Positions 9,030-63,494 of a stretch of 64,000 bases of DNA are shown here, piece by piece; positions within the stretch are counted from its first letter, which is position 1; every line of letters starts with the position of its first letter. The stretch covers positions 96,625-160,624 of the forward strand of contig NZ_JASGBH010000002.1 of NCBI RefSeq assembly GCF_030053395.1, written 5' to 3'. A model generated the notes under the pieces. The model was given only the letters and a program-made list of their open reading frames with translations. It did no database searches and had not been told where the DNA came from. This stretch comes from Limnohabitans lacus. Its GTDB lineage: Bacteria > Pseudomonadota > Gammaproteobacteria > Burkholderiales > Burkholderiaceae_C. Made by a program: the position numbers and the translations under genes.

Positions 9030-11825
9030 TCAGACGACGATGTTGACCAAACGGCCAGGCACCACGATGACCTTCTTGGGGGCGGCGCCATCGGCTTGCT
9101 TGATGAAAGCTTCGCTGGCCAAGGCGGCCGCTTCGATCTGCGCTTTGTCGGCCGTCGCGGGCACCAAGATGGCGCCACGCAGCTTGCCGTTGATCTGCAG
9201 CATCAGCTCGATCTGGTCGCGTTGCAAGGCCGACTCGTCAACCGCTGGCCACGGCGCATCCAGCAATTCGCCGACAGCTTTGGCGTAGCCCAGCTCTTGC
9301 CAGACGGCGTCTGCGATGTGCGGGCAAGCGGGGTAAAGCATGCGCATCAAGAGCGACACGCCTTCGCACAGGGCGGCGGTGTCACCTGCGCTGCCATCGG
9401 GCTTGAAGTCTTCCAGCGCGTTGAGCAGCTTCATGCAACCGGACACCACGGTGTTGTACTGCATGCGCTCGTAGTCGTAGCCCACTTGCTTGAGCACCAG
9501 GTGCATCTCGCGGCGCAAAGCCTTGGCCGCATCGCCCAAGGCGGCTTGGCTCAGGTCTTGGCCTGTGGCTGAGCGCAGCAGTTCGTGGTGCTTGAACGCG
9601 AAGTTCCACACCCGGCGCAAGAAGCGGTAGCTGCCTTCCACGGCGGCGTCGTTCCACTCCAGCGTCACCTCGGGCGGCGCGGTGAACATGGTGTACAGGC
9701 GGGCGGTGTCGGCGCCGTAGCGCTCGATCAGGTCCTGCGGATCCACACCGTTGTTCTTGGACTTGGACATGGTGCCCACGCCTTCGTAGTCTATTGGCGT
9801 GCCCACGGGCAAACGGCCGTCGCCACTGTCGGCTTCGTTCTTGAGCTTGGCGCCGATGACTTTGCCGGTCTCGTCCAACACATGCTCGACGTCGTGCGGC
9901 CAGAAATAGTCCTTGCCACCCTTGGCGGTGCGGCGCGAATAGATGTGGTTGAGCACCATGCCCTGCGTGAGCAGCTTGCTGAAGGGCTCGTCGACCTTGA
10001 CCAAGCCCAGATCGCGCATGACCTTGGTCCAGAAGCGGGCGTACAGCAGGTGCAGGATGGCGTGTTCGATGCCGCCGATGTATTGGTCCATGCCGCTTCC
10101 GCCAGTGGCATTGTTCTGGTCCCGCATCCAATAATCGGCGCCATCGGCCACCATCTTGTCCGAGTTGGTCGGATCGCAGTAGCGCATGAAGTACCAGGAC
10201 GAATCCACAAAGGTGTCCATGGTGTCGGTCTCGCGGCGGGCGGGCTTGCCACACACGGGGCAAGTCACACCCGCGTGGAAGCCTTCGTGCTTGTGCAGCG
10301 GGTTGCCCGAGCCGTCCGGGATGCAGTCTTGCGGCAGCACCACGGGCAGGTCTTTTTCGGGCACGGGCACCGCGCCGTGTTCGTCGCAATGGATGATCGG
10401 GATCGGTGTGCCCCAGTAACGCTGGCGGCTCACGCCCCAGTCGCGCAAACGCCAAGTGGTCTTCTTCTCGCCCAAGCCTTTTGCGGCCAACAGCTCGGCC
10501 ACTTTGGTCACGGCGGCTTTCTGGTTCAGGCCATCGAGTTCGCCGGAGTTGACACACACGCCATCTTTGGTGGCGTACCACTCGGACCATGCGGTTGCAT
10601 CGAAGACCACAGAGGCCTTGGCGTTGCCTGCGTTGGGCAACGATGTTGAGCTTGCGTCTGAGGCGCCCGACGCAGGCGACGACAAGGCCGGAGCTCGTGC
10701 AGCGACAACCTGCTTGATCGGCAGCGCGTATTTCAAAGCAAACGCAAAGTCACGCTCGTCGTGCGCAGGCACGCCCATCACGGCGCCATCGCCGTAGCTC
10801 ATCAGCACGTAATTGCCAACCCAGACTTCGACTTGTGCGCCGGTCAGGGGGTGCGTGACGAACAGGCCGGTGGCCATGCCCTTTTTCTCTTGGGTGGCCA
10901 ACTCGGCTTCGGTCGTGCCGCCGGATTTGCATTCCTCCAGGAACGCCGCCAAAGCGGGGTTGCTGGCGGCCGCATGCAGCGCCAGCGGGTGCTCAGCCGC
11001 CACCGCACAAAAGGTCACGCCCATGATGGTGTCGGCGCGGGTGGTGAAGACGTACATCTTGCCGTCGCCGATCAAAGCGCCGTCAGCGCCAGCGATGGTG
11101 TGTGTGAAGGCGAAGCGCACGCCTTCGCTCTTGCCGATCCAGTTTTCCTGCATCAGGCGCACTTTGTCAGGCCAGCCGTTCAGCGTGGCCTTCTCGTTGC
11201 CGATCTGCACATGGTCCAGCAGTTCTTGGGCGTAAGCGGTGATGTTCAAGTAGTAACCGGGGATCTCACGTTTTTCAACCGGAGCGCCCGTGCGCCAGCC
11301 GCGGCCGTCGATCACCTGCTCGTTGGCCAGCACGGTCTGGTCCACCGGGTCCCAGTTGACGACTTGGGTCTTGCGGTAGGCGATGCCTTTTTCCAGCATC
11401 TTGAGGAACAGCCACTGGTTCCACTTGTAATACGTCGGGTCGCAGGTGGCCACTTCGCGCGACCAGTCGATTGCCAGGCCCATGGCCTGCATCTGCTTTT
11501 TCATGTACGCGATGTTTTCGTAGGTCCACTTGGCCGGGGGCACGCCGTTTTTGAGCGCGGCGTTTTCAGCAGGCAAACCAAACGCATCCCAGCCCATGGG
11601 CATCAAGACGTTGTAGCCCTTCATGCGCAGGCTGCGCGTGAGCATGTCGTTGATGGTGTAGTTGCGCACGTGGCCCATGTGCAGCTTGCCGCTGGGGTAG
11701 GGCAGCATGGAGCAGGCGTAGAACTTCTTTTTGCTGGCGTCTTCGGTGACGCGGTAGGCATCGCGGGCCGTCCAGCGGGCCTGTGCTGCGGGTTCGACTT
11801 CGAGGTGGTTGTACTTGTCTTGCAT
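9030..11825 (-). CDS. leuS: Leucyl-tRNA synthetase with an in-frame palindromic insertion
   Basis: Charges tRNA-Leu. It has the class I motifs HMGH (49-52) and TMSKSK, plus the CP1 editing domain. At 931 residues it is longer than the usual 860-880. Between the conserved IKQVV and GVCVNSGE segments there are 47 residues where E. coli has about 19 (from memory). The extra part is Ala/Ser/Pro-rich and is encoded by a 64-bp palindromic element (10620-10683) that also occurs upstream of this gene. The reading frame is kept, so the enzyme is presumably active. A TACAAT hexamer ends 8 nt before the ATG at 11825. lptE and holA follow in the same operon. Confidence 0.97.
10620..10683 (-). repeat. Palindromic element, copy B, inside leuS
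   Basis: Arms at 10620-10637 and 10666-10683 pair over 18 positions with about three mismatches (12-bp core GCCTGCGTTGGG / CCCGACGCAGGC). The intervening loop, read on the minus strand, matches the loop of copy A at 11908-11936 in 28 of 29 positions, yet the arms of the two copies differ in sequence. The element is translated in-frame as part of LeuRS ([15 protein letters not shown] region). This resembles the protein-coding palindromic elements known from Rickettsia; that parallel is an inference. Confidence 0.8.
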
Positions 11826-11839: not shown

Positions 11840-11883
11840 GAGGGCGCTGGGTCTGGGGCTCGCTTGTTGGAGGTGTGTTGGGA

Positions 11884-11955
11884 CCCGCAGGAAGGCAGAC
11901 CCGAGCGCCTCAGACGCAGGCTCAACATCGTTGCCCGGGCCTGCCTCCCTGCGGG
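11884..11955 (+). repeat. Palindromic element, copy A, upstream of leuS
   Basis: Two 20-nt arms (11884-11903 and 11936-11955) pair at 18 of 20 positions around a 32-nt loop (11904-11935). The loop is nearly identical to that of copy B inside leuS, and 24 of 29 positions match a sequence at 19613-19641 after corA. It occupies the 183-bp gap between exbD and leuS. It has no T-tract, so it is not a standard terminator. Confidence 0.8.
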
Positions 11956-12008
11956 CACATGCGCCAAAGGTGTTCACCCCCCAGCTTTGCACCCGGGTAG
12001 GTGATGGC

Positions 12009-19566: not shown

Positions 19567-19612
19567 ACCGCCTTCGCTGGGAACGTTGTTTGCAGCTGGT
19601 CTGTGCCGGACT

Positions 19613-19641
19613 CCTCAAGCGCTGGCTCAACCTCGTCGCCC
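19613..19641 (+). repeat. Palindromic element, diverged copy C core
   Basis: The 29-bp segment matches the conserved loop of copy A (11908-11936) at 24 positions. The flanks can still pair in part (CTGG with CCAG, and GTTGTTTGC with GCAACAAAC at 7 of 9). It lies between corA and mtnN. Near 19676-19693 a separate perfect hairpin (CTTGTTG/CAACAAG) follows without a T-tract; it could help end corA transcripts. Confidence 0.5.
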
Positions 19642-19718
19642 TGCCCCAGCCCACCGCAACAAACTTTGGGCCCATCTTGTTGTTGTCAACAAGCACCCCA
19701 ATGCAATGCTTGACGGCA

Positions 19719-63425: not shown

Positions 63426-63444
63426 TCAGGGCTTGGACTCAGAC

Positions 63445-63477
63445 AACAAAAAACCCCGCAATGCGGGGTTTTTTGTT
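63445..63477. terminator. Bidirectional terminator between desaturase and pgk
   Basis: A perfect 15-bp stem (63445-63459 with 63463-63477) with an AAT loop. A and T runs on both sides let it stop transcription from both convergent genes. Confidence 0.95.
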
Positions 63478-63494
63478 GGGCGTATCGAAAGCCT

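Follow-up and report, generated by a model that had tools for sequence, protein, structure and literature searches.

The window, a stretch of 64,000 nucleotides from Limnohabitans lacus, holds hairpins of one kind in quite different surroundings (Table 1). Copy A lies in the gap between an exbD-like gene and leuS, the latter named by reading of its protein, without a family search. Copy B lies in frame within leuS, the reading frame of which stays open across it. A degraded copy C, which was not on the list of the original prediction, is found between a corA-like gene and the next gene, which we take to be mtnN-like.

Table 1. Hairpin copies and the leuS frame in the window (positions are those of the window)
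Feature	Positions	Strand	Basis
Copy A, 5' arm	11883-11902	+	sequence; covariance-model match G000:C12:108507-108580 (window 11883-11956)
Copy A, conserved core GAG-CGCCTCAGACGCAGGCTCAACATCGTTG-CCC	11903-11936	+	sequence, core pattern
Copy A, 3' arm, pairs with 11883-11902	11937-11956	+	sequence, DNA fold
Copy B, whole hairpin	10615-10688	-	covariance-model match G000:C12:107239-107312
Copy B, core and arms	core 10635-10668; arms 10669-10688 and 10615-10634	-	core pattern, fold
Copy C, degraded hairpin	19588-19664	+	covariance-model match G000:C12:116212-116288, E 4e-4
leuS reading frame containing copy B	9030-11825	-	homologues by tblastn

Copies A and B had been predicted to share nearly the same loop between arms that differ in sequence and still pair with themselves, and the description is accurate: their cores are identical at 32 of 34 bases, and the 20-nt arms, ACCCGCAGGAAGGCAGACCC / GGGCCTGCCTCCCTGCGGGC in copy A and GCCTTGTCGTCGCCTGCGTC / AACGCAGGCAACGCCAAGGC in copy B, are self-pairing in each case and unrelated between the two. 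Folded as DNA, copy A reaches -27.5 kcal/mol (z -2.57; 1 of 200 shuffles equally good) and copy B -26.6 kcal/mol (z -2.86; 0 of 200). When up to 3 mismatches are allowed, the 28-nt pattern of the core, CGCCTCAGACGCAGGCTCAACATCGTTG, matches twice in the window (10638-10665 on the minus strand and 11906-11933 on the plus strand) and never in 100 dinucleotide shuffles; across the whole genome it finds only these two copies, and a shorter pattern adds copy C. Two other inverted repeats were seen in the window: a perfect, terminator-like palindrome of 17 bp with a 1-base spacer at 63444-63478 (CAACAAAAAACCCCGCA A TGCGGGGTTTTTTGTTG), and an imperfect one at 1702-1775, with 25-nt arms around a loop of 24 nt, that is without the core of the hairpin family.

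Copies A and B are best read as members of a dispersed REP-like hairpin family in Limnohabitans/Rhodoferax-type freshwater bacteria, of which we recognised no description in the open-access literature searched. Among named genome contigs, 24 stretches were picked up by a scan; the titles of 21 name Limnohabitans, Rhodoferax, Comamonadaceae or Burkholderiales. The 28-nt core turns up seldom in the wider family, in 4 of 299 genomes when up to 3 mismatches are allowed. At the same tolerance the shorter core pattern matches in 28 of 90 genomes of one genus, 20 of 89 of a second and 14 of 84 of a third, counts that include chance matches. A wider scan, which searched for CTCA and ATCG and required the arms to pair, brought together 147 distinct sequences, orthologues among them, and these contain 59 cores. 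A covariance model, for which 150 first-look candidates were scored per genome, matched in at least 10 places in the genome of the window and gave at least 2-17 matches per genome in 14 genomes, some of these being both strands of one hairpin. Twenty regions hand-picked from its matches yielded 34 copies, again selected for arm pairing. Adjacent inverted pairs, all plus then minus with cores 119-213 bases apart, occur in 11 of these 20 loci, many of which were chosen because pairs were already visible among the covariance-model matches.

Narrower views of the element were discarded. That it is strictly local, confined to 10 kb, had been suggested by the short-loop pattern, but the covariance model brought out further copies, dispersed and with different loops, and clustering within about 10 kb applies to the short-loop subtype only. 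Nor is it a private repeat of leuS, as the same family occupies a giant UvrA-like gene (Pfam UvrA_inter and ABC_tran matches), in which copies fill three linkers in frame, sense or antisense, and which stays open across copies of both orientations; still other copies lie downstream of a corA-like gene. A phage source is unsupported, with 0 exact matches for two core patterns in viral_contigs. One record in the collection, L011, is titled as an Akkermansia muciniphila metagenome-assembled genome; it is probably mislabelled or its bin contaminated, because its leuS-exbD-dapB-fur region is Limnohabitans-like, with leuS at 94% protein identity.

The anatomy of the family combines a constant frame with a variable centre. 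Its core reads CCTCA-K-A, a variable inner hairpin, then A-M-ATCG, and the recognisable part spans 24-33 nt when counted through A-M-ATCG plus one base, or 34-43 nt once the common GGG...CCC ends are added. In 58 of the 59 cores K and M match as a pair (45 T..A and 13 G..C, the remaining one being C..A). The inner part is GC-NN-GC in the copies of the window, GGCG-GGGGTA-CGCC in the Limnohabitans-type uvrA copies, CAGC-TTC-GCTG or TGCT-GCG-AGCA in some genomes, and of GGGGTACC types in many other copies. The outer arms, roughly 20 bp, are free in sequence. In the genome of the window itself, the UvrA-like gene (L296, contig C4) carries a degraded member with a different loop, CCTCAGAAGTCGCTTCGCGCCACACATCGG, so that loop types vary between loci of one genome. 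Genome G408 has twelve dispersed loci (L257-L268) with a GGGGGTACCCG-like inner hairpin and long arms partly common to the loci; at least some of its copies stand in inverted pairs (L237, L249), and they possibly represent a more ordinary, recently expanded subfamily.

Whether free arms nevertheless pair can be judged from copies that were located through the core only, at up to 4 mismatches from a degenerate version of it; there are 52 distinct ones, orthologues included. Their own arms pair with a mean local score of 16.0 (range 9-26), against a mean of 7.4 for arms combined across copies; the own-arm score lies above that cross-pair mean in all 52, and only 4.3% of cross-copy pairs reach a score of 15. 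Loops without pairing arms, which would have counted against the hairpin, were looked for among copies at 0-1 mismatch to a 23-nt core, and all 46 of these score at least 10, the weakest (L034 with 10, L083 with 11, L013 with 12) pairing in part. More distant matches served as a control: one of 5 matches with 2 mismatches (L117) scores 6, and among 27 matches with 3 mismatches there are 5 members scoring 17-22 and 22 sequences scoring 4-11.

The arms also covary. A gapless alignment of 20 + 34 + 20 nt was made from 35 of the 52 copies, hand-picked to thin orthologues and leaving out the weakly paired L013, L034, L063, L079 and L084. Standard pairs fill 89.6% of its cells, compared with 58.7% after shuffling (0 of 500 shuffles as high) and at most 42.5% when the partner is slid by 1-3 columns; the covariation score is 0.693 versus 0.148. 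The covariation is strong, with 221 cells in which both sides have changed, for which the shuffled mean is 62.6 and 0 of 500 shuffles are as high. Watson-Crick pairs make up 2390 of 2646 pairs in the 147 copies and 642 of 680 in the 34, shares that are not in themselves evidence of pairing because both sets were selected for it. The arms are site-specific, alike between orthologous sites, and covarying. Ordinary compensatory substitution may be the source of this covariation.

The mismatches that remain in the arms are distributed very unevenly between the two strands. In the 147-copy collection, a mismatch event was counted as a distinct combination of cluster, position and type, across 54 arm clusters that were defined on arm identity and are only partly independent; the selection of copies for pairing leaves mismatch type unaffected. 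On the core-sense strand there are 106 A.C events, 14 G.T events and 59 others, with more A.C in 40 of the clusters, more G.T in 1 and equal numbers in 13. An A.C mismatch on this strand is a G.T (or G.U) on the complementary one, so that wobble is tolerated on the complementary strand and the fold of one strand looks constrained, as far as sequence comparison goes, with a single-stranded DNA binder or an RNA as the putative agent. In the uvrA-like gene the ratio of A.C to G.T is 49:7 in sense copies (p 7e-9) and 11:2 in antisense copies (p 0.02), and it is 19:4 by raw count in the 34 further copies (p 0.003); the asymmetry therefore follows the element and not the gene. The pairs themselves are biased too, with G-C against C-G at 1328:581 and T-A against A-T at 301:180 (raw counts, related copies included). 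Intrastrand template switching has been proposed to leave such a G-C and T-A arm asymmetry (PMC8794818, in the part available to us). The A.C/G.T asymmetry is unpredicted by template switching alone, and a folding constraint is therefore needed as well.

Tolerance of wobble on one strand would also be expected if the hairpins were functional RNAs, serving in 3'-end protection, termination or antisense control and kept by selection, their mobility being ancient and irrelevant. This account gains from hairpins that are retained and covary at apparently orthologous places in several genomes, and from 17 of the 20 fetched loci, in which copies are not wholly within one reading frame by crude ORF calls. 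We nevertheless regard it as unlikely. The uvrA-like gene has copies in both orientations while the asymmetry follows the element, and a plus-then-minus pair would place opposite element strands in any one transcript; at 6 loci no Rfam family was found above gathering score, the 14 sub-threshold matches being mostly to microRNA models. A family in which core and arms come apart would further show that strong covariation in a stem is not necessarily a sign of RNA selection alone, copying of one arm into the other being a possible source of it.

Comparison of related sites shows that loops can be exchanged or inverted while the arms stay similar. The core of L127 at uvrA site 3 is inverted relative to L128, L129 and L187, over closely similar arms, and at site 2 three loop types stand over similar arms in L127, L187 and L226. 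In L187 one loop is common to all three uvrA sites and the arms are site-specific. Among 100 site pairs within Limnohabitans-type uvrA genes there are 8 cases in which sites of one gene have a minority loop variant in common; shuffling gave 2.3 on average, and 5 of 5000 shuffles were as high, although the shuffle ignores relatedness. Two loop types occur within one uvrA-like gene in L144. Downstream of corA, the core of L136 is inverted relative to L230 and L169, but its differing arms rule it out as a clean loop flip.

The origin of the arms can be approached through relatives in which the element is missing. At uvrA site 1 of L128 the left arm is GGCTTGGGGTATCGGGGGG, and element-free relatives have 18 of its 19 bases (L223), 17 of 19 (L191) and 16 of 19 (L129) at the same place. 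The right arm is complementary to the left at 18 of 19 positions and scores 7 (L191), 7 (L129) and 5 (L223) against the same relatives, values that lie inside the spread of its shuffles. In L223 the host sequence is GGGGGGCTC and in L191 GGGGGGCGCC, both overlapping the GGGC[TG]C of the core; L129 has no such overlap. Judged from these alignments the site is decisive, the left arm being host sequence and the right arm its inverted copy. A decisive match of this kind is found in 1 of 39 filled arm clusters, so that the proposed host origin of arms rests on one site. Across all 39, left arms match element-free relatives slightly better than at other sites, by a mean of +1.1 (p 8e-4; better by at least 2 in 10 of 39), and right arms do not (mean -0.1; better by at least 2 in 3 of 39), in clusters that are not independent and with at least one "empty" sequence (L299) itself containing a hairpin. 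Several apparently empty uvrA sites, L275, L292, L303 and L304 among them, may be deletions, and at the leuS sites the relatives without the element are too diverged for an empty-site comparison.

Another account would have the core target the loop of a palindrome already present in the host, as described for some REP families. REP dimers inside palindromes have been described (PMC3733652, in the part available to us), and at the place where L285 has its hairpin, L275 and L292 show a palindrome that is small and imperfect, which may be the result of a deletion. At L128 site 1 the three relatives that lack the element show a single arm, not a palindrome, and we consider prior palindromes very improbable as the source of the family's arms.

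Taken together, these patterns suggest that the core spreads or is swapped, while each site retains its arms or rebuilds them locally. The reading that we favor, with a probability of about one half, is that of a REP-like family whose arms are re-templated by template switching during replication and constrained by the folding of one strand. The core would then be the heritable and recognisable part, and the roughly 20-bp outer arms would belong to the site rather than to the family. During replication the nascent strand would fold back at the GGG/CCC base of the core and copy one arm into the other, which would perfect the palindrome and flip the loop, and nearby copies would swap loops through their common GGGC...GCCC ends. 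Fold-back of this kind at a new site would make the second arm out of target DNA. The form that folds and is selected or recognised would be the complement of the core as written, either as single-stranded DNA or as RNA. Two further observations count against this reading: the two loop types of L144 argue against full homogenisation of loops, and in G408 the arms are partly common to the loci. The original prediction had offered either selection for the hairpin or a mode of spread in which arms are rebuilt. Covariation and the strand-asymmetric mismatches speak for the first, and the loop swaps and the L128 arm for the second, but the building of an arm at insertion is seen directly at L128 only. 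The separation of core from arms makes the mechanism testable, in that empty sites, loop flips and loop swaps are readable from genomes.

A bolder and more doubtful proposal, which we put forward tentatively, is that of a mobile element transmitting the core alone. It would enter by template switching at a homology of a few bases, whereupon fold-back would copy the target into the missing arm; every copy would wear arms from its own neighbourhood, and later switches would change both arms and loops.

A more conventional possibility is an ordinary mobile element of the REP/REPIN type, inserting with its own arms, often in inverted pairs, and moved in trans by a RAYT or other transposase, the arms then drifting and compensating under selection for a hairpin in RNA or single-stranded DNA. 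The dispersed matches within genomes, the adjacent inverted pairs and the arms that G408 copies largely have in common all suit it, and a Y1_Tnp (PF01797) match, of the kind to be expected if the REP-associated transposase raised in the original prediction is present, was found in 22 of 22 genomes examined, that of the window included. A motif-and-hairpin scan of 20 RAYT-type neighbourhoods in 19 genomes, however, found no hairpin of this family, and RAYT is therefore a candidate engine only. The arms, too, differ among loci of one genome, some of them perfect over 22 bp (L358-L362 in G000, the genome of the window), and neither the host-DNA arm at L128 site 1 nor the loops that flip and change over similar arms fit an element arriving with arms of its own, so that this possibility stands at clearly less than even odds. 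What the scan did pick up in the RAYT-type neighbourhoods were 5 palindromes, spread over 4 loci; 3 of these palindromes are of AATTAATTGGG type (L319, L320).

Among known systems, the family is best read as nearest to the superfamily of CGTC-tagged REPs described in 2013 (PMC3733652), in the variant with a CCTC tag; it has some features of that superfamily and not others, and is not filed here as a member. In the part of that account available to us, the tag is CGTC, TGTC or CCTC, inverted dimers predominate, stems of 8-9 bp start with two A-T residues, loops have 4-5 nt, and a short tail is mostly CCA; the account also includes intragenic copies, double insertions in uvrA of other bacteria and no flanking transposase gene, and CGTC-type REPs were apparently without a dedicated transposase when described. 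Measured against it, the cores here begin CCTCA, partly by construction through the CTCA search and with the tag inside a longer palindrome, T-type cores read CCTC-AT...AT-CG beside the A-T stem start, and the intragenic uvrA copies are a further likeness; the inverted pairs in 11 of 20 hand-picked loci and the 20 RAYT-type neighbourhoods without a family hairpin may be likenesses too. The differences, within the same limits, are an inner stem that is variable, of about 2-6 bp with mismatches (by eye), a tail of CG followed by the arm in place of CCA (ATCG having been in the search), and the surrounding site-specific arms of about 20 bp. G-type cores, those of copies A and B included, moreover begin A-G, and only part of the family has GGTA-kind loops.

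In GTAG REP and REPIN systems, TnpA_REP recognises single-stranded DNA in a strand-specific manner. As small gene-less hairpins in inverted pairs, those systems with their RAYT genes resemble the present family, as far as the available parts of their descriptions go (PMC3116915, PMC8266576). They differ from it in the tag, GTAG being present in 0 of 59 cores and in 2 of the 147 copies when 22-24 nt of flank are counted in, and in the RAYT-type gene, which is flanked by a family hairpin in 0 of the 20 neighbourhoods (19 genomes).

Template switching at quasipalindromes offers a parallel of another kind, with arm homogenisation, multi-base compensatory change and inversion of the spacer (PMC8794818, PMC8604942) and a G-C/U-A excess that is proposed to be determined by the 5' base (PMC8794818). 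As far as the available parts of those papers go, the likeness extends to homogenised arms, inverted loops and an excess of G-C and T-A here, and the difference is that switching there acts on arbitrary inverted repeats, whereas here it is apparently tied to a dispersed repeat with one core. The arms of the present family are private to the site. Families of Rickettsia palindromic elements have, in this respect differently, sequence in common along the whole repeat. They are alike in being palindromic repeats in frame in protein genes (so described in the available part of PMC3733652), here leuS and the UvrA-like gene. The UvrA-like linkers (L187-L226, L272-L311) hold, in some genomes, other in-frame palindromic repeats of AATTGGGGTCRGATCCCAATT, GTCATTGCGAGCGAAGCG, CCGTTCGCCCTGAGCTTGTCGAA and GCCCTCACCCCAGCCCTCTCCC types.
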